A stretch of 64,000 nucleotides of DNA from the NCBI RefSeq assembly GCF_004803465.1, contig NZ_SRSF01000001.1, forward strand, positions 930,501 through 994,500. Reading direction: 5' to 3'. Each line of letters begins with the position of its first letter. Position 1 is the stretch's first letter. Positions 10,199 to 27,085 of the stretch are shown piece by piece. Both the position numbers and the translations under genes were made by a program. Source of the stretch: Neolewinella litorea (GTDB lineage: Bacteria > Bacteroidota > Bacteroidia > Chitinophagales > Saprospiraceae). Below the pieces are notes generated by a model. That model was not told the origin of the DNA. It worked only from the letters and a program-made list of their open reading frames with translations, and did not search any database.

Positions 10199-10609
10199 CT
10201 ATTCCGGAAGGGTTACCTCGTCGTCTGACAGGCCGGCTTCCGTACTGTTGGGTAGGACAAGCTGGTCTTTGTACAGGACTTTCTCGCGACTCTTGCGCCA
10301 TGCGTCCCCTTCGTTAAAGAAGGCGATCAACGCCCACAAGAGAAGCATGGTCGGCAGCAATACGGTCATGGCCAGTCCTTTCACCTCGTAGCCCATGTGC
10401 ATGAACTCGTAGATGATGAAGTAAGCCTTGTAGACCGACAGGGCAATGATGAGGAGCGAGGCCACGTAAATGAGGGGACGGATGGACTCGGCGAACTCGG
10501 CGGCCTTCAGGAGGGAGAGAATGACTTCGGCGACGGTGACGGCGGCCAGGAGGCCAAGGCCTTTCCAAACGCCGCGAACCGACTCTTCGTAACTGAGATG
10601 TTGTGCCAT
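10199..10609 (-). CDS. Cytochrome c oxidase subunit IV (caa3-type)
   Basis: 136 residues with three TM helices (about 15-34, 45-66, 79-99), the size and topology of the small subunit IV (COX4_pro/CtaF-like) of bacterial heme-copper oxidases. The central helix pair with YKAYFIIYEFMHMGYE is characteristic. It contributes to stability of the oxidase core in the cytoplasmic membrane. It follows subunit III by 68 nt in the same direction. The C-terminal 35 residues are soluble and acidic. Confidence 0.85.
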   Translation of the reverse strand: MAQHLSYEESVRGVWKGLGLLAAVTVAEVILSLLKAAEFAESIRPLIYVASLLIIALSVYKAYFIIYEFMHMGYEVKGLAMTVLLPTMLLLWALIAFFNEGDAWRKSREKVLYKDQLVLPNSTEAGLSDDEVTLPE

Positions 10610-10677: not shown

Positions 10678-11706
10678 TTAGAGGAGGTAGAATACCAGGA
10701 ATACGAATACCCAAACCAGGTCCACGAAGTGCCAGTACAATCCGATCTTCTCTACCATCTCGTAACCGTTCATGCGGGCTACGTATACACCGCTGGCTGC
10801 ATTGATCAGGATGATCAGGAGGAAGATAACTCCGGTAGCCACGTGGAAACCGTGAAATCCGGTGATGCCGAAGAAGAGGGCTCCAAAAGCCGTCGGGCCG
10901 AACTCTTGGATCTTGAGGATCTGCTCGTTCGTTTCCTCATCGACCACCACGTACTTGCGATGGATGAAGGGCTTGGCGGTGGGGTCACCGGTACCGTCGG
11001 GCCGGGCACCGTCAACAACGTAGCCGGGGTAGTCGCCCGGAATTGTGCTGTACTCGAAGTGATCCCCGGCCTCGCCATCGTGGTTGCCGGCCGCGGCTTC
11101 TTCACCGTGTGATTGTCCGGCAACGTGCAGCAGGTAGGTTTCACCCTCAACGACCTCTTCGTCGGTTATCTCACCGGTTTCCGGGTCGAGGTAGTAGCCG
11201 TTGTCGACGTAGGTCCCGAAGGGGTTGGTCGTAACGGTCATGTTTTCCTTGGTGATCAGGTTCGTCCATTCCCAGGCCTGACATCCGAGGAAGCCCGCGC
11301 CGCCGAGTACGGTAAGGAGCATCCAGAACACTACGCCGCGCTTGTTCTCACGCGCGCCTTCCTGCACCGCCCGTACCATCGTACCCGAACTAATAATCAG
11401 CAGGAACGACATGAAGGTAACGAAGATCAGCGGTGCCTCATCGTTCGGAAAAAGGTGATGGATACCGAAGGGTGCGGTAGCAAAAACCTTATCGGGTACC
11501 GGCCAACTCGGGCTGCTGAAACGCAGGGCGCCGTAGGAGATCAGGAAGCCCGCAAAAGTGAAGGCATCCGAAAGCAGGAAGTACCACATCATCAACTTGC
11601 CGTACGAAGTACGGAATGGCTTGCGATCACCACCTGACCAGTCGTTGGCCAGCTCCGGTTTGTGGTCTTCCGCGATGATGATATCCGTATCTCTTTCTTC
11701 GGTCAT
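10678..11706 (-). CDS. Cytochrome c oxidase subunit III with large soluble insert
   Basis: 342 residues of the heme-copper oxidase subunit III family, which stabilises subunit I and proton pumping. The TM part includes GKLMMWYFLLSDAFTFAGFL near the start and GFHGFHVATGVIFLL and YWHFVDLVWVFVFLVFYLL at the end. Between about residues 155 and 260 there is a long insert of roughly 100 residues, acidic and histidine-containing (GQSHGEEAAAGNHDGEAGDH), on one side of the membrane. Ordinary subunit III proteins are near 200-290 residues, so the insert is the oddity. It is the second of two adjacent subunit III-type genes, 32 nt downstream of the first. Confidence 0.88.
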   Translation of the reverse strand: MTEERDTDIIIAEDHKPELANDWSGGDRKPFRTSYGKLMMWYFLLSDAFTFAGFLISYGALRFSSPSWPVPDKVFATAPFGIHHLFPNDEAPLIFVTFMSFLLIISSGTMVRAVQEGARENKRGVVFWMLLTVLGGAGFLGCQAWEWTNLITKENMTVTTNPFGTYVDNGYYLDPETGEITDEEVVEGETYLLHVAGQSHGEEAAAGNHDGEAGDHFEYSTIPGDYPGYVVDGARPDGTGDPTAKPFIHRKYVVVDEETNEQILKIQEFGPTAFGALFFGITGFHGFHVATGVIFLLIILINAASGVYVARMNGYEMVEKIGLYWHFVDLVWVFVFLVFYLL

Positions 11707-11738: not shown

Positions 11739-12338
11739 CTAGCGCTGCAGGCTCAGGAACAGAATGAGGTAAATCCAAAGTACGTCCACGAAGTGCCAGT
11801 AGATCATGGTCAACTCCAGCCGCAGCTGACGGGCCGGGGTTTTCCGCAACTTGATGGCGTAGGCGAAAACAACCGACACCAGCAGGACGGCCACGCCGCC
11901 CACCACGTGGAGGGCGTGCAACCAACTGATGGCGTAGACGAAATCACCGGCGGGGTTAATCTTCAGGGGAACGCCCTGGGCCGCCAACTCCTCCCACCCC
12001 ATGTACTGGAGAACGAGGAAGGCAAGACCAAGGAGGAAGGTCACCGACATCAACACCTGGTACGCCCGTGTTGCCTCCCGTTTGAAGGCCCGGTACGCGG
12101 CGTGCAAAGTTAGGCTACTGACGACGATGACCAAAGTGTTCACGTAGAAAATGGTCGGGATCGAAAATTCCAGCCAGTTGCTGGATGCCCGGCGCACGAT
12201 ATAGGCGCTGGTCAGCGCGATAAACATCATCACCAGACTACCCAATCCCACGTAAAGGGCAAACTTCAGCGGGTGAAGTTTGCTGCGACGAGACGGAGTG
12301 TCGATGCGGTGGTTCAAAGTTGATTCAATTGCACTCAT
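11739..12338 (-). CDS. Heme-copper oxidase subunit III, short paralogue
   Basis: 199 residues, five TM helices, of the cytochrome c oxidase subunit III family: LGSLVMMFIALTSAYIVRR at the start, SWLHALHVVGGVAVLL in the middle and YWHFVDVLWIYLILFLSL at the end. A second, longer subunit III lies immediately downstream. Tandem subunit III genes occur at Bacteroidota caa3 loci, where the two may be split parts of the quinol-type or caa3-type arrangement. Its ATG overlaps the ctaB stop codon (ATGA, 4 nt), indicating translational coupling to heme O synthase. Confidence 0.88.
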   Translation of the reverse strand: MSAIESTLNHRIDTPSRRSKLHPLKFALYVGLGSLVMMFIALTSAYIVRRASSNWLEFSIPTIFYVNTLVIVVSSLTLHAAYRAFKREATRAYQVLMSVTFLLGLAFLVLQYMGWEELAAQGVPLKINPAGDFVYAISWLHALHVVGGVAVLLVSVVFAYAIKLRKTPARQLRLELTMIYWHFVDVLWIYLILFLSLQR

Positions 12339-13246
12339 GATACATATAGTTTACCGGCCCAGTAGACCGTAAACACGAGCGGCAGGTAGGCAAAGGAGAA
12401 AAACATCATTCGCAGTGCCGTCGACCGCTCGGGACGACGATAGAAATTCAGGGCATAATAGAAAAAAACCACGCCCAGCAAGGCAACCAGAACGGTTGCC
12501 CACGCGGAGGTAACGCCAAGTGCGTACGGAAGCAGGCTCAGCGGAATGAGCACCAATGTAGCGATGATGGCATCTCGACCGAGCGTACGGACGTCAACCT
12601 TGCCGTCGATCTCCGGCACGAGGCGGAAGCCTGCCTTGCGGTAGTCTGCGCTGCCCAAAAATCCGATGGCGTAAAAGTGCGGCAACTGCCAGAAGAACTG
12701 AATCGTGAAGAGGGTAACACCCAATCCCGTGATGGCCCCTTCCGCGGCGGCACAACCGATCAGGGCCGGCAGTGCCCCCGGTACAGCACCCACCACTACG
12801 GCTACGGGCCCTACCCGCTTGAGCGGCGTATAGACGAAGGCGTAGCTCATCAAAGAGATCATTCCGAGGATGGCAGTCCATGGATTGAACAGCGCGAGAA
12901 AGGATATGCCCCCAAGGCTGGCAAAGCCGGCCATCAGCAGGGCTTCGCTGCTTGACATGCGACCTTCTGCCAGGGGGCGGCGGCGGGTGCGTTCCATTTG
13001 CCGGTCATAATCCTTCTCCAGTATCTCGTTGAGAATGTTGGCGGCGGCCGTGGTCAGGAAACCACCTGCGGTCAGGACGCCAACGGCCCACCAACTCACG
13101 CCACCGGCCTCCAGGGCCACCAGGTAAGCCAAAACAGACGACAATACGACAGTGGCCGACAACCGGAACTTCACCAGGGCCGCCAGATCACTGACTTTGC
13201 GGGCAAATTCCAAAGTGTACGTCCGACTTGTGGTTGATGCTTTCAT
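12335..13246 (-). CDS. ctaB: Protoheme IX farnesyltransferase (heme O synthase)
   Basis: A 303-residue polytopic prenyltransferase of the UbiA family. The first Asp-rich motif lies in NILNEILEKDYDRQMERT (consensus NxxxDxxxDxxxxRT, with local variation), and the second prenyl-binding region around GSADYRKAGFRLVPEIDG. It adds a farnesyl group to heme B to make heme O for the oxidase. ATG 13246 was chosen because the 24-residue upstream extension runs into the terminator hairpin. Its stop overlaps the start of the short subunit III gene by 4 nt. It is separated from ctaD by a terminator, so it may have its own promoter or depend on readthrough. Confidence 0.92.
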   Translation of the reverse strand: MKASTTSRTYTLEFARKVSDLAALVKFRLSATVVLSSVLAYLVALEAGGVSWWAVGVLTAGGFLTTAAANILNEILEKDYDRQMERTRRRPLAEGRMSSSEALLMAGFASLGGISFLALFNPWTAILGMISLMSYAFVYTPLKRVGPVAVVVGAVPGALPALIGCAAAEGAITGLGVTLFTIQFFWQLPHFYAIGFLGSADYRKAGFRLVPEIDGKVDVRTLGRDAIIATLVLIPLSLLPYALGVTSAWATVLVALLGVVFFYYALNFYRRPERSTALRMMFFSFAYLPLVFTVYWAGKLYVS

Positions 13247-13253
13247 GCGAGGT

Positions 13254-13300
13254 AAAAAACGACCCGTAGCCGCGGCGACTGGCCTACGGACTACGGGTCG
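13254..13300 (-). terminator. Rho-independent terminator after ctaD
   Basis: CGACCCGTAG (13260-13269) pairs perfectly with CTACGGGTCG (13291-13300). On the minus strand the stem runs into TTTTTTACC. It lies 40 nt after the ctaD stop and 8 nt before the ctaB ATG, so it divides the respiratory locus. Confidence 0.8.
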
Positions 13301-13339
13301 CCAGGACACTCCCGTCAAGGGGTGCCGGTAGATTAAGAG

Positions 13340-15199
13340 TTAGTGCTCGACGCTCTCTCCCTCCAGCGTGGGCTGGACCTGGGAAATGTTATCGATACCG
13401 TCTTTGCTGTAGTCGTAGGCCCAGCGCTGAACCGTCGGCAGTTTACCGGGCCAGTTGCCGTGACCTACCTCGATGGGCGTGGTCCATTCCAGCGTATTGG
13501 CATTGTAGGGGTTCTTGGTGGTCATTTTGCGACCGCGCCAGATGCTGTAGAAGTAATTGATGACGAACAGCAGCTGAAAGCCGAAGGTCAGCAGGGCGGC
13601 AATTGTGATGAACTTGTTCATCCCGTCGAAATGACCAAAAGTCTGGAAACTGTCGAAGCTGTAGTAGCGGCGCGGGACACCGGCCATACCCAGATAGTGC
13701 ATCGGCCAGAATACGCAGTATGCACCGATGGTGGTACCCCAGAAGTGAACCTTGCCGAGGGTATCGTTCATGAAGCGGCCATACATCTTCGGGAACCAGT
13801 GGTAGATCCCGGCGAACATGCCGAAGAAGGCAGCTACCCCCATTACGATGTGGAAGTGAGCCACGACGAAGTAGGTGTCGTGCAGCTGAATATCAAGCGC
13901 GGAGTTACCGAGCCAGATACCGGTCAGGCCACCGGAGATGAACATCGAAACGAACCCAATAGCAAACAGGCTCGCCGGATTAAAGCGAATGTTGCCACCG
14001 TACAGGGTGGCGATCCAGTTGAACACCTTGACCGCCGAGGGTACGGCAATGATCAGGGTGAATATCACGAAGAAGTTGGCAATGAAGGGGTTGATGCCAG
14101 ACATGAACATGTGGTGGGCCCAGACGATGAAAGCCAGGAAGGCAATCGCCAGAATGGAAAACACCATGGCCTGGTAGCCGAAGATGGGCTTGCGGGCGTT
14201 GACCGAAAGTACCTCCGACACGATACCGAAGGCGGGCAGGATGATGATGTACACCTCGGGGTGTCCCAGGAACCAGAACAAGTGTTGGTAAAGGATCGGG
14301 CTACCGCCGACGTGGTCGAGGGCCGCGCCGCCGATGTAGATGTCGCTCAGGTAGAAGCTCGTGCCGATACCGCGGTCAAGCATTAGCAAGAAAAAGGCCG
14401 AGGTCAGTACCGGGAAGGAAAGCAGGCCTAGAATGGCCGTCACGAAGAAAGCCCAGATCGGCAGCGGCAGACGCCACATGCTCATGCCTTTAGTGCGGAG
14501 GTTGAGGACCGTGGTGATGTAGTTGATACCCCCCAGCAGCAGGGAGATGACCAGCAACACCAGTGAAATCGTCCAAAGTGTCATACCCGCGCCGGAACCG
14601 TCCATAGCCTGTGGCAGCGCGGAAAGCGGCGGATACGCCACCCAGCCGCCGGCGAAGGGGCCGGTGGAAAGGAAGAGTGAGGCGAACATGATCATACCGG
14701 AAGTAAAGAAGAACCAGTAGCTGAGCATGTTGAGCAGTGGCGAGGCCATGTCGCGCGCGCCGATCATCAAGGGGATCAACAGGTTGCTGAATGTCCCGGA
14801 GAGACCGGCAGTAAGCACGAAGAACACCAGGATAGTTCCGTGCATGGTAACCAGCGCGTAGTAAAAGTCCTGCTGCAGGGTACCGATACCTTCACTGTTG
14901 ACCGTGATCCACTTGCCCAGCACCGGTTTGAGCCAGGCAAGGCTCTCTTCGGGAAAGCCGAGCTGCATGCGGAAGATCAGCGACATGGCCGCTCCGATGA
15001 TGGCCCAGAACATCCCCGTGATGAGGAACTGCTTGGCAATCATCTTGTGATCCTGACTGAAAATATAGTGGGAGACGAAGTTCGACTGGTACTTGTCACC
15101 GTGGTGGTGCTCGTGGAAGTGATCATCGTACCCAAATTCCTCGATCAGCGCTTCTTCGCGCTTCAGCGGGGCCATCGTAGGTGCTGCTGCTGTAGCCAT
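13340..15199 (-). CDS. ctaD: Cytochrome c oxidase subunit I (heme-copper, caa3-type)
   Basis: The 619-residue catalytic core subunit with about 12-13 TM helices. Diagnostic motifs are all present: WFLGHPEVYIIILPAFGIVS (CuB His and the cross-linked Tyr), WAHHMF (CuB His pair) and HDTYFVVAHFHIVMG (heme ligands). It reduces O2 to water while pumping protons. The N-terminus is longer than usual and His-rich (HFHEHHHGDKYQ, about 27-38), a possible metal-handling tail. It lies 34 nt downstream of the subunit II gene and is followed by a strong terminator. Confidence 0.97.
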   Translation of the reverse strand: MATAAAPTMAPLKREEALIEEFGYDDHFHEHHHGDKYQSNFVSHYIFSQDHKMIAKQFLITGMFWAIIGAAMSLIFRMQLGFPEESLAWLKPVLGKWITVNSEGIGTLQQDFYYALVTMHGTILVFFVLTAGLSGTFSNLLIPLMIGARDMASPLLNMLSYWFFFTSGMIMFASLFLSTGPFAGGWVAYPPLSALPQAMDGSGAGMTLWTISLVLLVISLLLGGINYITTVLNLRTKGMSMWRLPLPIWAFFVTAILGLLSFPVLTSAFFLLMLDRGIGTSFYLSDIYIGGAALDHVGGSPILYQHLFWFLGHPEVYIIILPAFGIVSEVLSVNARKPIFGYQAMVFSILAIAFLAFIVWAHHMFMSGINPFIANFFVIFTLIIAVPSAVKVFNWIATLYGGNIRFNPASLFAIGFVSMFISGGLTGIWLGNSALDIQLHDTYFVVAHFHIVMGVAAFFGMFAGIYHWFPKMYGRFMNDTLGKVHFWGTTIGAYCVFWPMHYLGMAGVPRRYYSFDSFQTFGHFDGMNKFITIAALLTFGFQLLFVINYFYSIWRGRKMTTKNPYNANTLEWTTPIEVGHGNWPGKLPTVQRWAYDYSKDGIDNISQVQPTLEGESVEH

Positions 15200-15233: not shown

Positions 15234-16754
15234 TTACTTGGAAGAGAGATCAGGTGCCTGTGGCTCCGAAACCCCACCTTCAGTAATGTATATTTCGATT
15301 AGAGAGTTGCGGCTCTCGGCGGCTTCTCCACCGGATGTCGTCATCAATTGAGTTGAACCATAACCGCGTGACCGCAGGCGGTTCGCGTCGATGCCGGCGT
15401 CGATCAGGTAAGTGCGAATGGCCTCGGCGCGCTGGGTGCTCAGCGATACGTTCTCGGTTTCTTCCGCGCCATTACCGGCATGGCCCATGAGCATAACCCC
15501 TACCCCGTCATTGTCTTCGAGGTAGCCGATCAGGTCGTTCAACTGATACTCACTATCACCGGTCAGATCGGCCGTGCCGTCCTCGAAGTTTACGTGGTCC
15601 AGCGAAATGAAGTTGTCGTCGTTAGCGGGTGTCGCGATGGCTTGACCAATCGCTTCGTTGAAGGCGTTACGGCGCTCCTTTACGTCGGCCATGAACAGCG
15701 GGTCGGCATCCGTACCCATGATGTTAGCCTCGTAGTACGGGGTCTGACCGGCGTACCAGGTGTCAAACTCGTCTTGTTCCAGGATGGTGACCGTACGGGC
15801 CATAGACCAGTGGCCAATACCACAAAGTTCGGCGCAGGCCAGTTCGAAGTTGCGGGTTTCCCAAAGCTGTTGTCCGCTGTCGGATTCCGGATCGATTCCC
15901 TGGTACTCTTCGTACTCAGACAGTCCCTTCCGCCACTCTTTGGTGGTGGTACGTGGGGTGAAGACGAAGTAGGTCGGCAGGCCGGGGACTGCATCCATCT
16001 TGACGCGGAACTGGGGCAGGTAGAAGTCGTGTAGTACGTCGACTGCGGTGATTCTTACCCGGACTTTCTGGTCGACCGGGAGGGTAACGTCGTTCACCAG
16101 AATGTCGTCGTGATTCTTGGGGTCGGTCCAATCTTGGCCTAGCGGGTTGTTGCCGGAAATGAGGCGGAAATCCGTACGTCCGAGCAGACCATCCGGTCCG
16201 GGGTAGCGCATTTGCCAGTAAAACTGCCGGCCGCTGGCCTGGATCTCCATGTAGTTATCATCTTCGCCCACGTCGCTCATGATCTCGTTCCACGCGTCAA
16301 GTCCACCAACTACCAGAAAGGTCATGACGATGGCGGGAATACCCGTCCACACCAATTCCACGGTATTGTTGTGGCTCATGTACTGGGCCTTCCTCCCCTT
16401 GCGGCTGCGGTACTTATAGGCGTAGTAGAACAGGGCGATGTGCGTGAGGATGTAGGTGACGTAAGTAACCCCCAGCGTCCACTTCATCATACTGTCGATC
16501 TCCTCGCCGTGCAGCGAAGCGGATGCATGCGGACCGAAGCCGAGGATGTAATTCTTGTAGTAGTATGCCGAAGCCGTGGTAATCACGAGCAGGGCCACCA
16601 TGAAGAACAGCAGGCCATAACCCGTGGATTTAGTGGCCTTGGCCTCTACTTCCTCGCTGCCGCGCAGTTTCTTCGCCAGGTCCCGCACCCGCGCGACCTG
16701 CACGATGATCAGCAGCAACAGCGCTATGCAAATAAAGATGATGAACGTAGTCAT
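15234..16754 (-). CDS. ctaC: Cytochrome c oxidase subunit II fused to a C-terminal OmpA-like domain
   Basis: 506 residues. Four predicted TM helices (about 3-21, 45-66, 91-112, 132-152) precede a periplasmic cupredoxin with an intact CuA site: His242, then CAELCGIGHWSM giving Cys307, Cys311, His315 and Met318. After residue 378 an OmpA_C-like domain follows (FEDGTADLTGDSEYQLNDLI, SLSTQRAEAIRTYLIDAGID, RLRSRGYG), ending at about 492. In OmpA-family proteins this domain grips peptidoglycan; the conserved Arg (Arg442) is kept but the ligand Asp of GHTD is replaced (GHAG, 424-427). Most bacterial caa3 enzymes carry a cytochrome c fusion here instead. Subunit I is 34 nt downstream. Confidence 0.93.
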   Translation of the reverse strand: MTTFIIFICIALLLLIIVQVARVRDLAKKLRGSEEVEAKATKSTGYGLLFFMVALLVITTASAYYYKNYILGFGPHASASLHGEEIDSMMKWTLGVTYVTYILTHIALFYYAYKYRSRKGRKAQYMSHNNTVELVWTGIPAIVMTFLVVGGLDAWNEIMSDVGEDDNYMEIQASGRQFYWQMRYPGPDGLLGRTDFRLISGNNPLGQDWTDPKNHDDILVNDVTLPVDQKVRVRITAVDVLHDFYLPQFRVKMDAVPGLPTYFVFTPRTTTKEWRKGLSEYEEYQGIDPESDSGQQLWETRNFELACAELCGIGHWSMARTVTILEQDEFDTWYAGQTPYYEANIMGTDADPLFMADVKERRNAFNEAIGQAIATPANDDNFISLDHVNFEDGTADLTGDSEYQLNDLIGYLEDNDGVGVMLMGHAGNGAEETENVSLSTQRAEAIRTYLIDAGIDANRLRSRGYGSTQLMTTSGGEAAESRNSLIEIYITEGGVSEPQAPDLSSK

Positions 16755-16880: not shown

Positions 16881-18527
16881 CTAGGTGTGGTGGTGAATGC
16901 TCTCTTCCAGGTAAGGATCATTCTTGGGCTCCAGGCGAACGGCGGCCAGTTTACTCATGGTGAAGAAGAGAAAACCACCAAGGAAGCCGAGGAAAGTACC
17001 GATCTCAAGAAGGCCTGGCAGGGTATACCCGGATTTGAATCCCAGGGTATGCAGGGCTTCACTGTGGCCACCGGCCGACTCGAGGTGCCCGAGCAATTCA
17101 TTATCGCTGACGTACTGTTCCTGGACGAAATGGTTCGGCTCGAAGACGTCGGGGTCCGTGCGATCGGTGGCGGTTGCCAGCACTTCGCGGCTGTTCTCCC
17201 TGGTCTGGGGCGGTCCGCCACGGAATTCGTTGGCTACCGGCACACCTTCATCCTGGGCGGATGCGTCGAAGTGAACGTTGTCATTGGCGTAGGCATCGTC
17301 GACGATCGGTCCTTCTTCCAGATTGTCGCCTTCGCTGACCACTTCGCCCTCGGCCAGAGCGGCGGTTTCGTCGCCATCGTGCTCATCCGCGTGTTGATCG
17401 TGACCCATTACAGCGGTATCACCGTGCTCCTCCCCGCCATGCTCACCACCGTGCTCTTCGTGGGCGGCCATCTCGATGAGCGTCAGCCGCGCACCGGGCT
17501 TGATCATGTTGAAGTAGTCCAGCCAGTGGCCGAAGAACAGGAAGGCCGAGGCGAAGAACAGGGTACCCATCTTGCGCTTGGTATCGTTGCGCATCAGGAC
17601 GAAGAAGGGCAGCACGAAATTGATGGCGAGGTTCGACCAGAACAGTACCGGATAGTTTTGCATCCGCTCCCGGAAGTAGATAGTCTCCTCTCCCACGTTG
17701 GCGTACCAAATGAGCATGAACTGGCTGAACCACAGGTAGGTCCAGAAAATCGAGATCGCAAACAGGTACTTGCCAAGGTCGTGGAAGTGCTCCTCATTGA
17801 CCAGGGTGTAGTAACCGCGGCTCTTCAAGTAAATGAGCAGCATGATGGTCAGGGCCGTCATCGCAACGAAGAGCGAAGCCGTGGCGTACCAGGCGAACAT
17901 GGTGGAATACCAATGGCTGTCGATAGACATTACCCACTGCCAGATCATTGCCGCGCTGGTGAATCCAAAGATCGGCAGGAAGATGGCGGCGTATTTCTTG
18001 TAGCGGCGGTAGTAGGAGAAGTCCTGGTCCGCATCGTCGCGGTCCTCGGCCAGGCTGATGTTACGCATTTTGCCGAGCAGGAAATACCACAGGCCGACGA
18101 ATCCAATGGTTCCGAAGGCGAACCACCACTTGTTCAGGAAGGAGGATTTGTGCGTAAGGATGGGATCCTCAAGCACGGCCGCCTCGTCGTTCCAGTGGTA
18201 GAGGTGATGGCTGTGCAGGAACAGTCCTACAATAATGACCCCCATGAGAAAGAGGCCCGGCAGCAGGAAGGTGGAAAAGCTTTCCCACACCCGCTTGAAC
18301 TGTACGAACCAGCCGGCGTAGGCGGTCGTAAAAGCGGCCAGCGCGAAGCCAGACAGGGCGGCGATACCCAGGAAGAAAACGGAGTTGTGGAGGAAGTTGG
18401 TCCAGAACCGCATGTGGTGACCTTCTCCACCGTCAACGAAGTAACTGATGATGAGACAGACCAGACCGACACCCATGAGGGCCAGGTTGGTGGTCTTTGC
18501 GCGGGAAGAGAATACAAAGTTCTCCAT
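16881..18527 (-). CDS. actF: Alternative complex III subunit ActF, quinol:cytochrome c oxidoreductase
   Basis: 548 residues: about ten TM helices of the ActF family (e.g. WWFAFGTIGFVGLWYFLLG, WQWVMSIDSHWYSTMFAWY, FSQFMLIWYANVGEETIYF). The helix WSNLAINFVLPFFVLMR and the last helix near 510-530 flank a soluble insert of about 130 residues that is rich in His, Asp and Glu (HEEHGGEHGGEEHGDTAV, GHDQHADEHDGDE). ActF is one of the two quinol-side membrane subunits of alternative complex III. It is the last act gene, 52 nt after actE, and is followed 126 nt later by the oxidase subunit II gene. Confidence 0.93.
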   Translation of the reverse strand: MENFVFSSRAKTTNLALMGVGLVCLIISYFVDGGEGHHMRFWTNFLHNSVFFLGIAALSGFALAAFTTAYAGWFVQFKRVWESFSTFLLPGLFLMGVIIVGLFLHSHHLYHWNDEAAVLEDPILTHKSSFLNKWWFAFGTIGFVGLWYFLLGKMRNISLAEDRDDADQDFSYYRRYKKYAAIFLPIFGFTSAAMIWQWVMSIDSHWYSTMFAWYATASLFVAMTALTIMLLIYLKSRGYYTLVNEEHFHDLGKYLFAISIFWTYLWFSQFMLIWYANVGEETIYFRERMQNYPVLFWSNLAINFVLPFFVLMRNDTKRKMGTLFFASAFLFFGHWLDYFNMIKPGARLTLIEMAAHEEHGGEHGGEEHGDTAVMGHDQHADEHDGDETAALAEGEVVSEGDNLEEGPIVDDAYANDNVHFDASAQDEGVPVANEFRGGPPQTRENSREVLATATDRTDPDVFEPNHFVQEQYVSDNELLGHLESAGGHSEALHTLGFKSGYTLPGLLEIGTFLGFLGGFLFFTMSKLAAVRLEPKNDPYLEESIHHHT

Positions 18528-18579: not shown

Positions 18580-19488
18580 TTATTTCTTGCGGAGGGTCGG
18601 TTGGGTGGCACCACCGGTGGGGGCGGCGTCGCTCATCAGTTCAGGGTCCTCCTGCTGGACGTTGGGCACCTGCTGGGCCAGCGGATCAAAGTCTACCAGC
18701 GGGGTAGCTACCGAAGGATTAAAGGTGTTGAACTCCTCGTTGTACTCCGTTTCCGTTTCCTTGGCCTGCAGAGAGCGGATGTAGTGAATCACCTGCCAAC
18801 GCTCTTCGTAGTTCATCTTGTCGGCGTAAGCACCCATCACGTTGTAGCCGTACATGATTGCGTGGTAATAGCGACCGTTGGATGCTTCCAGGAATTCCGG
18901 GCGAAGGAAGCTGGCCGGGGCGGCCGGGTACTTTGCCTGGGGGTTCTTGTCGGTATCGTAGATGTAGCCCAGTCCATCGCCAGCTTCCCCGTGGCAGATG
19001 CCACAGAAGATGCTGTACAGGTTGGCCCCGCGCACGAGTCCGGTCTCCGTGATAGGGAAAGGGTTAGTCATGTTGTCGGCGATGGCGGCTTCACGACCTT
19101 CCGGTGTATCGTCGTAGTAGTAGGGCACGTGGCCATTGGTGGGGATAGACATGGCGTTCGGCGAGTCAGTAGGCATCAGACCACCGAGCATGCTCTCCGC
19201 GTCGCCGATATTATTCGGCGGGCGCATACCCGGGATGTACTGCCCGGCGTAGCCGCGGGGTACCGTTCCGTCGACCGTATACTTGGGGTAGGCCAGTTCA
19301 CCGAGCTTCACCGTGGAACGGTCATTCCAGGTATTGTAGTAATAATAGTTATAGGTGTTGGCTTCCATTGCCACCGAGTGAGCCATGTCGGGCATGTACT
19401 CGCTTCCGGGGAAGTCATCCTCCGCGTCGCTACAGGCGGCAAGAGATGCTGCCAGGACGAGTACGGTGATCAGATTGTGCAGTTTCAT
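18580..19488 (-). CDS. actE: Alternative complex III subunit ActE, monoheme cytochrome c lipoprotein
   Basis: 302 residues with a lipoprotein signal peptide ending LAAC (Cys19). One c-type heme motif, CGICH, sits near residue 162 in a cytochrome c domain with a downstream methionine-containing segment (YGYNVMGAYADKMNYEERW). It receives electrons from ActA/ActB in the periplasm and passes them toward the oxidase. The region before the heme (about 20-150) carries the ActE-specific extension with YPKYTVDGTVPRGYAGQYIP. It lies 29 nt after actD. Confidence 0.93.
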   Translation of the reverse strand: MKLHNLITVLVLAASLAACSDAEDDFPGSEYMPDMAHSVAMEANTYNYYYYNTWNDRSTVKLGELAYPKYTVDGTVPRGYAGQYIPGMRPPNNIGDAESMLGGLMPTDSPNAMSIPTNGHVPYYYDDTPEGREAAIADNMTNPFPITETGLVRGANLYSIFCGICHGEAGDGLGYIYDTDKNPQAKYPAAPASFLRPEFLEASNGRYYHAIMYGYNVMGAYADKMNYEERWQVIHYIRSLQAKETETEYNEEFNTFNPSVATPLVDFDPLAQQVPNVQQEDPELMSDAAPTGGATQPTLRKK

Positions 19489-19517: not shown

Positions 19518-20120
19518 TTAGGCCGCCACCATTTTTTGGTGCACGGTTTCCACACCGGTGCGGTCGAAGTAATCACGCAGGCGGTCGACTTCTTTACCGC
19601 TCAGCTCGGTGACGTCAAAGGCGATGCAGAACTTGTCGTCGGTTATGCGATCGTGCAGGCGGCGGGGCTCGGCGCCCGGCCCCAGGCCGTTTATGATGTA
19701 AAAGACCGTTACCATCCCGACGGCCGAGAAAAGAACCGTCAGCTCGAAGGTGATCGGGATGAAGGCCGGTACAGACCAGTAGGGCTTACCGCCGAAAATA
19801 ATGGGCCAGTCGCGGGTGAAGACCCAGGTCATGAAACCGAAGCCGAACAGACAGCCGATGGTTCCAAAGATGAAGCCCGCCACGTGGAGGCGGCTTTCCT
19901 CGAGGCCCAAAAGGGGATCCAGTCCGTGAACGGGGAACGGGGTGTACACGTCGTCGATGTCCAAGTGATCGGCATTCGCCGCCTTAACCGCGTCGAGCAG
20001 TTTCACTTCATCGTCATACAGCCCGAAAAGGATGTTGCGTTGCCCGGCGGCTACGAATTCCCGGTTGCTTTCCACTGCACCCGCGTCCGCGCCGTCTCGT
20101 TCTATTCTGATTGTTGCCAT
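19518..20120 (-). CDS. actD: Alternative complex III subunit ActD (DUF3341)
   Basis: 200 residues with two TM helices (about 79-101 and 122-146) between soluble ends, the DUF3341/ActD architecture. Typical segments are ILFGLYDDEVKLLDAVKAA and IDDVYTPFPVHGLDPLLGL near the N-terminus and FDVTELSGKEVDRLRDYF at the end. It is a structural membrane subunit of alternative complex III without cofactors. The start follows actC by 21 nt. Ordinary length for the family. Confidence 0.93.
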   Translation of the reverse strand: MATIRIERDGADAGAVESNREFVAAGQRNILFGLYDDEVKLLDAVKAANADHLDIDDVYTPFPVHGLDPLLGLEESRLHVAGFIFGTIGCLFGFGFMTWVFTRDWPIIFGGKPYWSVPAFIPITFELTVLFSAVGMVTVFYIINGLGPGAEPRRLHDRITDDKFCIAFDVTELSGKEVDRLRDYFDRTGVETVHQKMVAA

Positions 20121-20141: not shown

Positions 20142-21650
20142 TTAGTCTAGTGGTTTGTCGTTTTCTCCGTCGATGTCTACCGTACCCCGGGCCGACAGGT
20201 CGTTTACCTCCGGTGGTACTACCGTACCATGCTGGGTGGCGCTGTGGGCAGGCGAGGTGCCGGCGTGAGAATGTGCAAGGGCATTGGGGCCAATGTACTG
20301 GTCACCGGCCGTCTTCAGGATGCTCTTGATCTCGGCGATGGCCACTACGGGTGCCACGCGGGTGAAGATGAGGAACAGCGTAAAGAAGAGGCCCAGCGTA
20401 CCGATGAAGATGCAAATCTCAACCCAGGTAGGAACGTAGTAGCTCCAGCTCGAGGGCAGGTAATCGCGCGCCAGTGTGGTGGCGATGATGACGAAGCGCT
20501 CGAACCACATACCGATGTTGATGAAGATCGACATGAAGAAGGTCCAGAACAGGCTCGTACGCAGGCGGCGGCTCCAGAAAATTTGGGGAGAAACCACGTT
20601 ACACAGCATCATACCGATGTAGCTCCAGTAATAAGGCCCGAGCACCCGGTTCAAAAACGCGAACTGCTCGTAGATGTAGCCCGAGTACCAGGCGATGAAG
20701 AGCTCGGTGAGGTAGGCTACCCCGACGATGGAGCCGGTGAGCAGGATCACCTTGTTCATCGACTCGATGTGCTCGATGGTGATGTAATCCTCCAGGTGCA
20801 GCACCTTGCGGGCGATCAGCATGAGCGTGAGTACCATGGCGAAGCCGGAAAAGATGGCCCCCGCCACGAAGTAAGGCGGGAAGATCGTGGTGTGCCAACC
20901 CGGGATCACCGAAGTGGCGAAGTCAAAGGATACGATGGTGTGTACCGAAAGTACCAGCGGCGTAGCCAGTCCGGCGAGGATGAGCGAAAGACTCTCCCAC
21001 CGCTGCCAGTGCTTGGCCGATCCGTTCCAGCCGAAACTGAATATGCTGTATATCTTCTTGCGGAGTCCTACCGCCCGGTCGCGCACGGTAGCGAGGTCGG
21101 GAACCAGACCGGCATACCAGAAGAGCAGCGATACGGTGAAGTAGGTCGAAATGGCGAATACGTCCCAGAGTAGCGGGCTGTTGAAGTTCACCCACAGTGG
21201 GCCCCGCGTATTGGGGTACGGGAAGATGAAGATGGCCAGCCACAGGCGCCCCATGTGGATGAGCGGAAACTGACCGGCACACATTACGGCGAAGATTGTC
21301 ATGGCCTCCGCGGCCCGGTTCACCCCCGTCCGCCACTTCTGGCGGAACAGCAAGAGGATCGCCGAGATGAGCGTACCGGCGTGACCGATACCCACCCACC
21401 AGACGAAGTTGGTGATGTCCCAGCCCCAGTTAATGGTGCGGTTGAGGTTCCAGGAACCGATGCCGACCCAGACGGTCCAGGCAACGCTGAAGGCGAACAG
21501 CCCCAGGCACATCACCGAGATGATGAAGGTGATGACCCACGACAGGGAGGGTGCCGTTTCCGTCGGCCGACAGATGTCCTCCGTAATCTGGTGATAGGTC
21601 TTATGACCCGTAACCAGCGGCTGACGTACCGGTGCTATATGTCCACTCAT
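20142..21650 (-). CDS. actC: Alternative complex III subunit ActC, NrfD/PsrC-like quinol subunit
   Basis: 502 residues, ten TM helices of the NrfD/PsrC type. Segments such as WGWDITNFVWWVGIGHAGTLISA and FSIFSFGWNGSAKHWQRW are typical of ActC and of the related MopB-complex membrane anchors. ActC is the quinol-oxidising membrane subunit that contacts the Fe-S protein ActB. The start at 21650 gives the family N-terminus (HKTYHQITEDI). A 168-nt gap separates it from actB; this gap includes an AT-rich stretch (GATTTACGATTTTCGATT near 21656) like sequences near 44.47 and 44.9 kb. Confidence 0.95.
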   Translation of the reverse strand: MSGHIAPVRQPLVTGHKTYHQITEDICRPTETAPSLSWVITFIISVMCLGLFAFSVAWTVWVGIGSWNLNRTINWGWDITNFVWWVGIGHAGTLISAILLLFRQKWRTGVNRAAEAMTIFAVMCAGQFPLIHMGRLWLAIFIFPYPNTRGPLWVNFNSPLLWDVFAISTYFTVSLLFWYAGLVPDLATVRDRAVGLRKKIYSIFSFGWNGSAKHWQRWESLSLILAGLATPLVLSVHTIVSFDFATSVIPGWHTTIFPPYFVAGAIFSGFAMVLTLMLIARKVLHLEDYITIEHIESMNKVILLTGSIVGVAYLTELFIAWYSGYIYEQFAFLNRVLGPYYWSYIGMMLCNVVSPQIFWSRRLRTSLFWTFFMSIFINIGMWFERFVIIATTLARDYLPSSWSYYVPTWVEICIFIGTLGLFFTLFLIFTRVAPVVAIAEIKSILKTAGDQYIGPNALAHSHAGTSPAHSATQHGTVVPPEVNDLSARGTVDIDGENDKPLD

Positions 21651-21818: not shown

Positions 21819-24800
21819 CTAGGATTCCAAAGCGTCGATCGGGTTGTGTACCCGGGCGGCGTAGAATACGGAAGATTGGGTATTGACCTCTTCCAGAGCG
21901 AGGTAGTTCAGGGGGTTATCGAGCTTGCGCCGTACATCTCCCTGATTGTTGTTGCGGTCGCCAAAGGTGATCGCACCGGTCGGGCAGGCGGTCTGGCAGG
22001 CCGTCCGCACGTCGGAATCACGCAGGGCGCGCTTTTCGATCTTCGCGGTGAGCTTGCCCGACTGCAGGCGCTGGGCGCAGAAACTGCACTTCTCGATGAC
22101 ACCGCGGCTGCGCACGGTAACGTCGGGGTTAAGCACCATCCGGGTGAGGTTGTCGGCTCCGAAGGGCAGGTCCTCGTCGGCGATCTCCGGCTCGTTGCTG
22201 CTGAAGAGGTCGGCCGTGGTGTAGTCGAGCCAGTTGAAACGACGCACCTTGTACGGACAGTTGTTGGCGCAGTAGCGGGTTCCGATACAGCGGTTGTAGA
22301 TCATCTGGTTGGCACCCTCATCGCTGTGCTGCGTGGCGTTTACCGGGCAGACGTTCTCGCAGGGTGCGTTGTCGCAGTGCTGGCACATCATGGGCTGGTA
22401 AACAGCGCGGGGGTTCTCAACGTCTCCGTAGAAGTAGCGGTCGATCCGCAGCCATTTCATCTCGTGGTGGCGCGAGACCTCGTACTTACCCACGACCGGC
22501 ACGTTGTTTTCCGCCACGCAGGCCACCTCACAGGCGGCACAACCGATACAGGCGGTCAGGTCCACGTGCATGGCCCACCAGTGGCCCTGGCTGTAGATGT
22601 CCTTGACGTACTCCTCGTAGGGGTACAGGGTCTGTTCGTTGAGGTGCTGGCTTTCGGCGCGGCGTTCGGCGATGTGCTCCCGCAGTTCGGGCAGTCCTTC
22701 GAAGGTACCCTGGAAGATGATCGAGCGATCGGTCAGGCCACCCTGCATACCCTCGCCGATCTCCATCACGGTGACTTCGTCGACGTTGTAGGGTTCGAGG
22801 TGCTCCATCTGCTCCTCGGTGAGTTCTCCGGCGATCTTCTGGGTTTCACCCGTGCGCTTGTCGTAGTAGGTGGTGCCCTCTTCGTTGCTGGTGGTGAGTC
22901 CCATCGTGTGGTGGTACTGCACGCTGGCAAATTCGTCTTCCACCCCGACGCGGCCGGAGATGGTCGCTTCCGTGGAGTAGTACTGCACGTAGCCGTCGGC
23001 GTCGACGGTGAGCCAGGGGTAGACGTTCACGCCGACCGATTGGCCGAGTGCACGACCCGGAGCACCCGTGAGGCGACGACCGTAGCCGAGTGCCAGGCCG
23101 AAGGTGCCGGGCATCTGCCCAAACTGGCGCACAACGGTCACGGTTTCGGGGGTTTCGCGGACGCTGAGTTCTACCAGGTCGGCCTTACCCTTGTATTCCT
23201 CGCCGTTTAGGTCCTTGTATGCCGTGTAGGAATTTCCACCGGTCCAGGTCACGGGGATGGTCAGGTAGTTGCCCCAGACCGTACGGGTGACGGGGTCGGG
23301 ACATTCCTGCAGCCAGGGGTTGGTGGCGTACACGCCGTTGCCCATATTGATGGTCTCGTAGAAAGTAATCTCGCTTTCTACCTGTACGGCGGCCGAGATT
23401 CGGCGTACGGCATCGGATTCGTCGAAGTCATTCACGTCGAGGACCACAATCTCCGCCTGCGGCAGAATGGCCGTTGCGGCTACATCTTCTTCGGGCGCGG
23501 TCGCGGGTGCCGTAGTCGTGGCGGAAGGCCGGGCGGGACTTCCGTAGCCCAGTCCGTAATCCTGGATCGTTCCCGAAGCGGCGGCGTTAAATACGCCATC
23601 GTGCAGGGCACTGTCCCAGAATGAACGGAAAGAGGTGAAGGTGTTCTGGGCGGCAAAGGCCGTTTCCTCCCAGTTCTTCATCACGTACTGCATGTATGGT
23701 TGCTCGGCCGTGGCGTCGTAGCGCTCGGTTTCGCCGGCCCAGATCAGCAGACTTTCACCTTCCTGCCGCGTACCGTAACGGTTGACGCTGGCGAAGATCG
23801 GGACGATGGCGGGCTGGATCAGGGAGTATACCCCCTGGACGGCTTCGGCGTCGCTCCAGCTTTCCAGGTAGTGGTGGTTCGGCGTGATGTACTCGCACAG
23901 CTGGCTGGTCTCCGTGGGGATACCGCTCATGCTGATGGTAAGGATACGGCGGAAGCCGGCGCGGATGGGATCGTCGATTACGTCGGAATCTACGCCGGGA
24001 TCGTTCTCGGCCTTGGCATCGGCCTCCTCGCTGCGGTCGTCGATTTCGTCGGCGTCCAGGCGGGTGGGTTCGTAATCCGGGTCGTTGCGTTCCAGCACGG
24101 CGTTGATGCGGCCGGCCCAGGGGTTATCGTAGGCCGGGTTGGCGCCGTCGAGCACGATGAGGGCGTCTACCCCACCCGATTCCAGTTCTTCAACGAAGCG
24201 GGCCATATGCTGGTCGCTTCCCTGGCGCTGGTAGCTCCAGCGGTTGGTCTCTATGGTGCTGCCGTAGCTGCCCAGCGCACGGTTGATGGCCAGGACAAGC
24301 TGCTGCTCGTACAGGTTGTTGCTGCCGCTGACTACGAGTCCGGCACCGCGGGCACCCTTCAGTTCACGGGCAACGGCTTCGATTTTGGCAGTGGTGGCCG
24401 CGTCGAGATTGGCCGACGCCCCACCGCCGACTACGGCGTTGTAGAGGGCGAGAATGGCCTGTCCCTGCTGGCTCGGCTTGACCATGATGCGGTTGTCGGC
24501 GTTGGAACCGGTCAGGCTCATGTGGCTTTCCACCTGAATGTGGCGCGACATGCGGCCACTGTCGGTGCGGCGACCCGTGGCGTACTGCCGGGCGTACTCA
24601 ACGGGCGAGATCCACGTACCGAGGAAATCGCAGTTGAAGCCGACAATTACATTGGCGTTGTCGAAGCGGTAGTGCGGAATGGCGCGAACGCCGAAGGCCG
24701 ACTGGTGCGCATCGAGCAGTGCCGAAGACGACACCGGGTCGTACTGCACCAGGACGGTATTTCCGGGCATCCGGTTCTTGAAGTCGCGGATGGCCGCCTT

Positions 24801-25382
24801 GGTAGAGGGGCTCAGCAGCGTGTGCGAGAGGATGCGGATCTGGCGAGCCTCCTTGAGGCGGTCGCTGATCTCGGCGTCGAACACTTCCCAACCGGGGTTG
24901 TCGCCGTAGTTACGGGCGCGCTGCACCTGCCCGTTCCGGACCCGGAATGGGCCATCGAAGCGGCTGGTGTCGTACATGCTCAGCACGCTGGCCTGGGCGC
25001 GGGCGCTGGTACCGCCTTCGGTGATCGGGCTCATGGAGTTGCCTTCGATCTTGATGGGGCGTCCTTCACGGGTCTTGACCAGCACGGGTACATAGTCTCC
25101 GCCCTGGACGAAAGTAGAGGCGAAGTAGGTCGCCACGCCCGGTACGATGGTATCCGGCTTGGAAACGTAGGGGATCGCCTTACGGACGGGGATGTCACAG
25201 GAGGCGATGGTGGCGGCCGTCACGCCGAAACCCAGGTACTTCAGAAAATCGCGGCGGGTGGCTTCGAGACGGGGATTCTCAAAATCCCGCTGGGCAACTT
25301 CACCGTCGGTAGCGGCCCGGTACGCCGGGCTGTTTTCTAACTGGTCGGTTCCTATCCAGACGTTGTTGACTTGCTTCTTCAT
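21819..25382 (-). CDS. actB: Alternative complex III subunit ActB, TAT-exported iron-sulfur protein
   Basis: 1187 residues. A twin-arginine motif RRDFLK (43-48) precedes a hydrophobic stretch and IASC (Cys62), a possible lipobox. The large N-terminal half is molybdopterin-oxidoreductase-like but lacks the cofactor. The C-terminal ferredoxin-like domain carries four cysteine groups: CIGCAACEVAC, CQHCDNAPCENVCPVNA, CIGTRYCANNCPYKV and CSFCAQRL with CQTACPTGA, enough for four clusters (in known ActB proteins three [4Fe-4S] and one [3Fe-4S]). It takes electrons from ActC and passes them to the heme subunits. A low-complexity Ala/Thr-rich linker occurs near residues 620-645. Confidence 0.95.
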   Translation of the reverse strand: MKKQVNNVWIGTDQLENSPAYRAATDGEVAQRDFENPRLEATRRDFLKYLGFGVTAATIASCDIPVRKAIPYVSKPDTIVPGVATYFASTFVQGGDYVPVLVKTREGRPIKIEGNSMSPITEGGTSARAQASVLSMYDTSRFDGPFRVRNGQVQRARNYGDNPGWEVFDAEISDRLKEARQIRILSHTLLSPSTKAAIRDFKNRMPGNTVLVQYDPVSSSALLDAHQSAFGVRAIPHYRFDNANVIVGFNCDFLGTWISPVEYARQYATGRRTDSGRMSRHIQVESHMSLTGSNADNRIMVKPSQQGQAILALYNAVVGGGASANLDAATTAKIEAVARELKGARGAGLVVSGSNNLYEQQLVLAINRALGSYGSTIETNRWSYQRQGSDQHMARFVEELESGGVDALIVLDGANPAYDNPWAGRINAVLERNDPDYEPTRLDADEIDDRSEEADAKAENDPGVDSDVIDDPIRAGFRRILTISMSGIPTETSQLCEYITPNHHYLESWSDAEAVQGVYSLIQPAIVPIFASVNRYGTRQEGESLLIWAGETERYDATAEQPYMQYVMKNWEETAFAAQNTFTSFRSFWDSALHDGVFNAAASGTIQDYGLGYGSPARPSATTTAPATAPEEDVAATAILPQAEIVVLDVNDFDESDAVRRISAAVQVESEITFYETINMGNGVYATNPWLQECPDPVTRTVWGNYLTIPVTWTGGNSYTAYKDLNGEEYKGKADLVELSVRETPETVTVVRQFGQMPGTFGLALGYGRRLTGAPGRALGQSVGVNVYPWLTVDADGYVQYYSTEATISGRVGVEDEFASVQYHHTMGLTTSNEEGTTYYDKRTGETQKIAGELTEEQMEHLEPYNVDEVTVMEIGEGMQGGLTDRSIIFQGTFEGLPELREHIAERRAESQHLNEQTLYPYEEYVKDIYSQGHWWAMHVDLTACIGCAACEVACVAENNVPVVGKYEVSRHHEMKWLRIDRYFYGDVENPRAVYQPMMCQHCDNAPCENVCPVNATQHSDEGANQMIYNRCIGTRYCANNCPYKVRRFNWLDYTTADLFSSNEPEIADEDLPFGADNLTRMVLNPDVTVRSRGVIEKCSFCAQRLQSGKLTAKIEKRALRDSDVRTACQTACPTGAITFGDRNNNQGDVRRKLDNPLNYLALEEVNTQSSVFYAARVHNPIDALES

Positions 25383-25452: not shown

Positions 25453-26991
25453 TTAGTAGTGGCAGCGCTGGCAGTTCAGTCCGCCGATGTCTTCTACGGT
25501 GACACCGTCCCGGGCTCCTTCCTTCAGCTCTTCGTGGTAGCGCTGGTAGGAGTTGTAGTAGTCGTTGTCCTCAAACTGTACCTGCGTTTCGCGGTGACAG
25601 TTGATACACCAGCCCATGCTCAGGGGGCTGTACTGGTACACCACTTCCATTTCCTCCACGGGGCCGTGGCAGTTCTGGCACTTCAGTTTACCGACGGTAA
25701 CGTGCTGTGCGTGGTTGAAGTAGGCGTGATCGGGCAGGTTGTGGATGCGCGTCCACTCAATGGGACCGGGTACCCGCTCGTCGCTGGTGTACTCGTTGGT
25801 GAGGGCGGCGTAAATGCCTTCCCACTGCTCCTCGACTACATTTTCTACCTCGTCGATGTCGCCGCCTTCGCTGATGTACTTGTCGGCGATCCATTTGCTG
25901 TAGATCTTTTCGGCCTGCTCATTGGTCATCTGGTCGTAGTTCTCGATGTAGGCCCCTTCCGTGGGGTCCCAACCGATGGCGGCGAAGATCTTGGTGATCT
26001 CGGCGGTACCGTACTGGCTACCGTAGTTAATGGCGCGGTGGCAATTCATACAGGTATTCACAGCCGGAATTACCGAGTGCTTGGACCGGCGGGCGCCGTC
26101 GTGGCAGTACTGACACTCAATTTTGTGGATGCCGGCGTGAACCTCGTGGCTGAACTTGATCGGCTGCTCGGGCTGGTAGTCCTGCTGCCGCCCCAGGTCG
26201 ATAGCATGGTTCACCGTGGTGTATCCGCCGAGTACTACTACTACGAAGATCACGAAGGCGATCATTCCGCGGCTTGTCAGGATCTGAGCCAGGGTACGGC
26301 GGGTACCGGGGGTGGTCCCTTCCGCCGTCTCTACCATATACTGCAGGTTACTGGTGACCCGGGCCAGGATCAGCGAGAGCAGCACCAGGGCACCGCCGAG
26401 GATTACGAACAGCCAGGTATTGTCAGCGCTTTCCTGGTTTTCAGCCACGGCCGGCCCGACGGTAATTCCCTTAGGGCCGTAGGTGCCGGTGTAAACGGCG
26501 TTGATGTAGGCGAGCAGGTGCTCGACGTCGTCGTTGCTCAGGTTGGTGTAGCTGGACATCACGGTGGGTTTCCACTCGTTCCAGACGGCTATGGCACGGG
26601 CACTCTTACCGGACCCAATAAGTTTCTGGGAATTCTGGATCCACTCATACAGGTGCTCGCGTGGCTCGCCGGCCCAGCGTTCCTGGACGCCGCCGAGCGC
26701 GGGACCCGTCATATTATCCTTCATGCTGGCCGCGTGGCAGGAACCACAAATATTTGCCTTCCATAGCGCCGCCCCCAGGTCGGCATCGCCTTCACCGGGA
26801 GAAACGGCGGCGGTGGCCGCATCGGGAATTGGGGTGGCATCCGCGGCCGCCGTAGCGGCGGGATCGCCTTCTGCGACTGACTCAGCGGTAAGGTCATCGG
26901 CTTGTTCCTGCTGCGCGAAGGTGCTGCCCGCCCCCAGGAAGAGGCAGAAAATCAGCAGGAGGTACCGGTAGGTTTTGGTAAAATATGTCAT
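25453..26991 (-). CDS. actA: Alternative complex III subunit ActA, multiheme cytochrome c with extra N-terminal monoheme domain
   Basis: 512 residues with six CxxCH heme motifs. The N-terminal cytochrome c domain has CGSCH at 82-86 after an Ala/Pro/Asp-rich linker. Two TM helices follow (about 185-206, 240-262), then the pentaheme domain with CQYCH, CMNCH, CQNCH, CINCH and a terminal CQRCHY. ActA mediates electron transfer on the periplasmic side of alternative complex III. The ATG at 26991 places a good signal sequence (YRYLLLIFCLFLGAGSTFAQ); an upstream in-frame extension to 27084 overlaps the promoter and was rejected. First gene of the act operon. Confidence 0.93.
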   Translation of the reverse strand: MTYFTKTYRYLLLIFCLFLGAGSTFAQQEQADDLTAESVAEGDPAATAAADATPIPDAATAAVSPGEGDADLGAALWKANICGSCHAASMKDNMTGPALGGVQERWAGEPREHLYEWIQNSQKLIGSGKSARAIAVWNEWKPTVMSSYTNLSNDDVEHLLAYINAVYTGTYGPKGITVGPAVAENQESADNTWLFVILGGALVLLSLILARVTSNLQYMVETAEGTTPGTRRTLAQILTSRGMIAFVIFVVVVLGGYTTVNHAIDLGRQQDYQPEQPIKFSHEVHAGIHKIECQYCHDGARRSKHSVIPAVNTCMNCHRAINYGSQYGTAEITKIFAAIGWDPTEGAYIENYDQMTNEQAEKIYSKWIADKYISEGGDIDEVENVVEEQWEGIYAALTNEYTSDERVPGPIEWTRIHNLPDHAYFNHAQHVTVGKLKCQNCHGPVEEMEVVYQYSPLSMGWCINCHRETQVQFEDNDYYNSYQRYHEELKEGARDGVTVEDIGGLNCQRCHY

Positions 26992-27053
26992 TATGAGCTT
27001 GACATTTAAGGGATTGCAGAGCGAAGCCGTAAGGCCCCTCTCCGCTGGTCGGG

Positions 27054-27085
27054 CAAAGATACTTTGATGACAATTCTTTAACAAA
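27054..27085 (-). promoter_or_regulatory. Consensus Bacteroidota promoter of the act operon
   Basis: On the minus strand TTTG (27085-27082) is followed after 20 nt by TATCTTTG (27061-27054), a full match to TTG-N19-21-TAnnTTTG. The leader to the actA ATG at 26991 is about 60 nt. This is the best promoter in the window. Confidence 0.8.

Follow-up and report, generated by a model that had tools for sequence, protein, structure and literature searches.

A proposed peptidoglycan tether on the ACIII-aa3 respiratory supercomplex of Saprospiria, placed on CoxB or ActE and apparently weakened in Neolewinella litorea

The closest described systems are the ACIII-aa3 supercomplex of F. johnsoniae and the ACIII-caa3 supercomplex of R. 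marinus, both encoded by actABCDEF followed by the oxidase genes; the accessible parts of the reports mention no OmpA domain in either, and our comparison is with these descriptions (PMC8552683, PMC5928083, PMC8361435). ACIII and the oxidase are physically associated in both organisms (PMC8552683, PMC5928083), an association that we infer for the species studied here. In F. johnsoniae, oxidase subunit II lacks a cytochrome and ActA has an extra cytochrome domain, which appears to replace that of subunit IIc in caa3 oxidases (PMC5928083). A 20 A map of the R. marinus supercomplex places ActE on top of ActA, beside the periplasmic domain of subunit II, whereas the F. johnsoniae supercomplex is described as arranged otherwise, with contact via oxidase subunit III (PMC5928083). 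F. johnsoniae grows more slowly without ActE but keeps its oxidase activity, and the authors favour a second electron path (PMC8552683).

The window, a stretch of 64,000 nucleotides from Neolewinella litorea (contig NZ_SRSF01000001.1, positions 930,501 to 994,500), has the same arrangement, with act genes directly upstream of oxidase genes on the minus strand in an order shared with relatives. The product of the multiheme cytochrome gene actA (25453..27084) shares with its F. johnsoniae counterpart an additional cytochrome domain, a cytochrome c that Pfam places at the N-terminal side (residues 102-195). Next to actA come actB (21819..25382; a molybdopterin-type and iron-sulfur protein matched by NCBIfam QrcB and QrcC below their cut-offs), actC (20142..21650), actD (19518..20120), actE (18580..19488; by Pfam a monoheme cytochrome c, with a lipobox-like LAAC by eye and without an OmpA domain here) and actF (16881..18527). 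The act names rest on similarity and operon order; actC, actD and actF, open reading frames conserved in relatives, were named after the known order of ACIII operons. Downstream of the gene for subunit II, coxB-ompA (15234..16754), Pfam identifies coxA (subunit I, 13340..15199; COX1, 470 bits), a ctaB-like UbiA prenyltransferase gene (12335..13318), two COX3 family genes (11739..12338 and 10678..11706) and a COX4_pro gene (10199..10609), and these are followed by a reading frame without a Pfam match, presumably Sco-like, and a DUF420 gene. Beside the operon, on the plus strand, a 228-residue reading frame (7869-8555) resembles by eye a metal regulator of the DtxR/MntR type.

The initial annotation described coxB-ompA as an oxidase subunit II ending in an OmpA-like domain, a description that holds, coordinates included, and to which we add the minus strand. 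Between ATG and stop the frame is uninterrupted over 506 residues, in keeping with the single reading frame proposed across both parts. Pfam matches COX2_TM at residues 76-148 (16311..16529; 38.7 bits), with two more helices N-terminal of it in residues 2-70, and COX2 at residues 169-259 (48.1 bits, covering the first 84 of 120 profile positions); by alignment and model the CuA cupredoxin extends to residue 342 (15729..16250). The ligands His242, Cys307, Cys311, His315 and Met318, read at the outset as intact, are invariant in 61 aligned homologues, and with both matches above the Pfam cut-offs the protein is a heme-copper oxidase subunit II. The NCBIfam CoxB equivalog TIGR02866 scores 137.3 bits against a cut-off of 147.7; because only 4 of 150 family genomes reach it, this cut-off is unsuited to the group. 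A linker of residues 343-384 (15603..15728), with a predicted helix at 352-374, leads to the tail, which has the OmpA_C fold and which Pfam assigns to OmpA (PF00691), the family first suggested for it, at residues 390-483 (15306..15587; 57.7 bits against a cut-off of 27.2, E 1.6e-15; 385-490 with a profile of relatives). In some sources the window gene and its counterparts at loci L010-L015 are filed as OmpA family proteins, in others as cytochrome c oxidase subunit 2.

The window protein is the sole COX2 match of its genome, in which a COX2 profile search found no second CoxB; a second oxidase with an OmpA tail was not found either. Elsewhere in the genome (contig C12, L066) lies a 423-residue exported-looking protein with a C-terminal OmpA domain that reads GHAS for GHTD and has no oxidase or act similarity. 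In caa3 oxidases the C-terminal extension of subunit II is a cytochrome c; the window CoxB has an OmpA domain instead and no cytochrome match in Pfam. The contrast, drawn in the initial annotation, needs a correction: since the extra cytochrome sits on ActA, we rejected the tail as a stand-in for the caa3 cytochrome, and electrons could reach CuA without the tail taking part.

The fusion is widespread in the family of the window species. Among the matches listed, 118 of 120 homologues, the window's own protein (P0002) included, contain PF00691, the two without it being P0087 and P0110. At loci from named records the fusion lies within the same operon in seven of eight, the eighth being the distant CoxB of Longirhabdus pacifica, which matches residues 83-342 only. 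Of the named relatives found, Neolewinella marina is the closest (83% identity); NCBI places it in Lewinellaceae, Saprospiria. In 103 of 150 family genomes the CoxB match extends into the OmpA part, a count that includes one gene split between frames (G043), one split over two contigs (G088) and two whose match ends at position 466 of 505 (G048, G148). A further 36 have CoxB without the OmpA part, in 10 nothing matches the oxidase part (G053 and G077, two of these, have a CoxB of another type) and in one (G129) CoxB is cut by the contig end. The tail of G048 (L145) is shorter, with no OmpA profile match at the locus, and that of G148 is likewise short, which looks like a domain in decay. In the assembly of G043 (L107) actF and actA are split between frames as well as coxB, probably through sequencing error. 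G149 (L158, L159) has two act-cox operons with a CoxB tail in both.

Beyond the family the fusion is scattered. A census of 149 genomes of the order found it in 19 of 19 family members and in 6 of 130 others (G586, G557, G561, G572, G603, G635), and in a class census of 149 genomes no CoxB outside the family reached past position 406 of 505 among the matches listed. The matches listed in a phylum-wide search of 395 genomes were dominated by distant groups and little informative. With the distant protein of G635 as query, 57 of 120 homologues among the matches listed had the OmpA domain; in that lineage CoxB proteins with and without the tail share up to 90% identity over their oxidase part, which points to recent gain or loss of the tail. 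CoxB-OmpA recurs in four families besides that of the window, and ActE-OmpA likewise in four. Other families of the class have long CoxB frames that resembled further tails; we rejected them as such, since in 12 of 16 opened loci (L072-L083) CoxB instead has a CxxCH cytochrome at the N terminus. This monoheme cytochrome c precedes COX2 and in nine of them resembles the cytochrome of the window ActA; the shuttle cytochrome may be portable too. In L082-L085 the COX2 profile matches in two pieces separated by 79-124 residues, an insertion inside the CuA part.

At loci without a CoxB tail, ActE, encoded two genes upstream, often carries the same C-terminal OmpA domain, a placement that appears to be new here. 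Queried with nine ActE-OmpA proteins, the family census found the fusion in 12 of 150 genomes (G003, G005, G033, G036, G071, G099, G102, G114, G115, G127, G128, G136), all of them among the 36 with tail-less CoxB and none among the 103 with CoxB-OmpA; ActE was visible in all but one genome of each group (102 and 35 genomes), the exceptions being G121 with and G027 without the CoxB tail. Since 23 of these 35 have the domain on neither subunit, it is dispensable. Outside the family, ActE-OmpA was present in 12 of 129 genomes in a search of 148 genomes of the order (11 in f66, one in f75), and a class search of 295 genomes added at least five (G790 and G816 in f129; G715, G825 and G910 in f120). 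Twelve of these 17 were opened, and in each the gene either has those of ActD and ActF as its neighbours or lies where an act contig ends. CoxB is tail-less in the 12 genomes of the order and in G790, G816 and G715. The fetched stretches of the act operons of G910, G825 and G715 (L121, L122, L123) contain no CoxB, and short OmpA frames occur in G638 and G642 roughly where ActE would be expected. Pfam finds both OmpA and cytochrome c in 30 of 30 aligned ActE-OmpA proteins, some of which are named 'outer membrane protein OmpA-like peptidoglycan-associated protein' in some sources. A tree of the OmpA domain (about 105 columns) lacks resolution and does not reject a single ActE-OmpA clade (AU p 0.113), and would agree with one origin or several.

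The two placements appear to exclude each other. In the family, 103 genomes have CoxB-OmpA, 12 have ActE-OmpA and none has both (Fisher's test, 0/103 versus 12/36, 1.9e-8, with relatives that are not independent). At opened loci the domain was on CoxB (43) or ActE (24), never on both and never on another operon product; L154 has a separate OmpA reading frame on the opposite strand. On a tree of CoxA and ActC with 99 tips, partly chosen by state (44 CoxB-OmpA, including the window, 24 ActE-OmpA and 31 neither), the CoxB tail requires at least 17 changes and the ActE tail at least 10, with repeated losses. Two independent Markov traits would be expected to overlap at about 9 of the 99 tips, and zero overlap arose rarely under independent evolution: in 0.0002 of simulations with the ActE pattern fixed and 0.0008 with the CoxB pattern fixed (5000 each), and in 0.007 and 0.036, respectively, with the 75 tips of the family only (3000 each). 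In an independent-pairs test the traits never moved the same way, with too few informative pairs. We regard the exclusivity as supported, not proved.

What such a domain might hold is indicated by PorE, in whose solved structure a peptide is bound in the pocket and diaminopimelate is held by the side chains of Asp576, Asn584 and Arg591 (PMC7192894), which we placed by motif at window positions 427, 435 and 442. The triad is intact in 105 of 117 CoxB-OmpA homologues, in 40 of 44 CoxB-OmpA proteins at loci and in 21 of 24 with ActE-OmpA. The three exceptions among the latter (G910, G825 and G715, with SAR, ALR and WAR) have kept NRR, and the triad is invariant across 30 aligned ActE-OmpA proteins, some of them shared with the loci set. 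The pocket Asp, present in 110 of 117 homologues, is replaced in the window, where codon 427 (15474..15476) encodes Gly. The window protein thus reads Gly427-Asn435-Arg442, with GHAG for GHTD, just as the initial annotation had noted, and it also has NSL for NRR.

That annotation doubted whether the window domain still binds, and the doubt was right and goes further. With both Asp and the NRR motif gone, the grip is probably weak, altered or lost, and in A. baumannii OmpA alanine at the equivalent Asp has been used as a wall-binding mutant (PMC6572160). Two relatives are damaged alike, IMCC34183 with Gly-Asn-Arg and NSG and N. marina with Ala-Asp-Arg and NAH, and the damage in N. xylanilytica is of a different kind (Asp-Thr-Arg, NPS). 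The Nei-Gojobori method gives the OmpA part a dN/dS of 0.17-0.22 when the window protein, N. marina and IMCC34183 are compared pairwise (three pairs), against 0.07 in IMCC34191/JB7 (dS 2.9), the only intact pair with a finite value, and 0.06-0.10 for the CuA part of the damaged trio. Saturation of many dS values makes these figures rough, and the linker evolves at the same pace as the tail. The window domain thus evolves, on this rough measure, faster than in the intact pair, and to judge from its residues it is a kept fold with a damaged pocket.

We propose that in Saprospiria and scattered relatives each ACIII-aa3 supercomplex would carry one OmpA_C-like domain, attached C-terminally to CoxB or to ActE. 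In this enzyme family the CuA domain lies in the periplasm, as does the cytochrome ActE, which is anchored by a lipid, and this would make the OmpA domain periplasmic. There its Asp, Asn and Arg would grip the diaminopimelate of peptidoglycan stem peptides, and the wall-bound tail would tie the supercomplex to the wall and limit its diffusion, presumably to some benefit, with electrons still flowing from ActA (and ActE) to CuA; in the window species the fold is kept, whereas binding has probably been weakened, altered or lost. Should the arrangement seen in R. marinus apply here, a tail from either C terminus would start on one side of the assembly; since F. johnsoniae is arranged differently, the nearness of CoxB and ActE is uncertain here. 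The linkers have similar medians, 42 residues for CoxB (29-71, n=43) and 42.5 for ActE (up to 73, n=24), measured between chosen profile edges; a negative ActE minimum reflects overlapping matches. A wall tether for the respiratory supercomplex, as the initial annotation had suggested, appears well supported for the gene family by the conserved pocket, the domain on a second subunit and the lack of any genome with both; for the window protein itself the suggestion fares worse. We lean, with some reserve, towards the whole proposal of one peptidoglycan tether per supercomplex with a weakened grip in the window copy, and consider a tether the likeliest reading, ahead of the two set out below. 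The chances are about even that in evolution the anchor has belonged to the machine as a whole, being put on complex IV (CoxB), put on complex III (ActE) or given up, and never doubled; the sacculus would then position respiration as it does flagellar stators.

The OmpA fold might instead serve assembly or dimerisation by contacting proteins (two supercomplexes, or other periplasmic subunits), with wall binding secondary and the window copy an example. One domain per complex would fit this too, as does the purifying selection on the fold in the damaged clade (dN/dS 0.17-0.22), but conservation across both placements falls on the residues of the peptidoglycan pocket, and we consider such a module unlikely. 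The domain could also be a passenger, one of the common OmpA modules joined by chance to exported proteins, tolerated with little effect and often lost. OmpA modules are abundant (a profile search gave 14 matches in this genome alone), and the many losses, the recent turnover in the G635 lineage and the pocket decay in the window clade are all as expected of a passenger. However, most members have kept the pocket despite much divergence, only two operon products carry the domain, and their overlap is below that of independent evolution, so that chance joining seems to us rather improbable. That a frame error or chimera fused coxB with an OmpA gene can practically be dismissed: nothing at the window locus hints at it, the split coxB of G043 notwithstanding, 117 of 119 other homologues among the matches listed and the 103 family genomes have the same fusion, and G+C is even along the gene (0.50-0.59), with no foreign base composition seen in the tail.

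Returning to the tether, it would, if true, connect an electron-transfer supercomplex physically and directly to the cell wall. The genomes suggest that many of these bacteria tie respiration to the wall and that the grip looks weakened in the window species. Titles and abstracts in the literature searched, which covered few subscription papers, yielded no description of an OmpA domain on CoxB or ActE. At the level of genomes, the exclusivity of the tails also argues that in these bacteria CoxB and ActE function within one assembly. The finding has a bearing on a further role of ActE, as sought in F. johnsoniae; tethering is a possibility only where ActE carries the OmpA domain. The intact, damaged, relocated and lost anchors form a natural set for studying the effects of immobilised respiration, and they carry a warning for annotation, in that several such oxidase subunits and cytochromes go under the name of OmpA family proteins.

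Among known systems, the OmpA-like domains of MotB, TssL and TagL hold inner-membrane machines to the wall, and we know of no respiratory enzyme among anchors of this type. In these unrelated machines, as proposed for CoxB, a C-terminal OmpA-like domain is attached to an inner-membrane complex, and the NCBIfam models of MotB and TssL match the window tail below their cut-offs. The caa3 oxidase of Thermus thermophilus (2yev), a fold match to the window CoxB, likewise has a subunit II with a periplasmic C-terminal extension. The closest parallel for the pocket is PorE of the type IX secretion system, described as a Bacteroidota OmpA_C-like domain with the same pocket positions as the CoxB-OmpA family; unlike the oxidase subunits, it is an outer-membrane lipoprotein of a secretion system, and it has the Asp that is absent from the window tail (PMC7192894).
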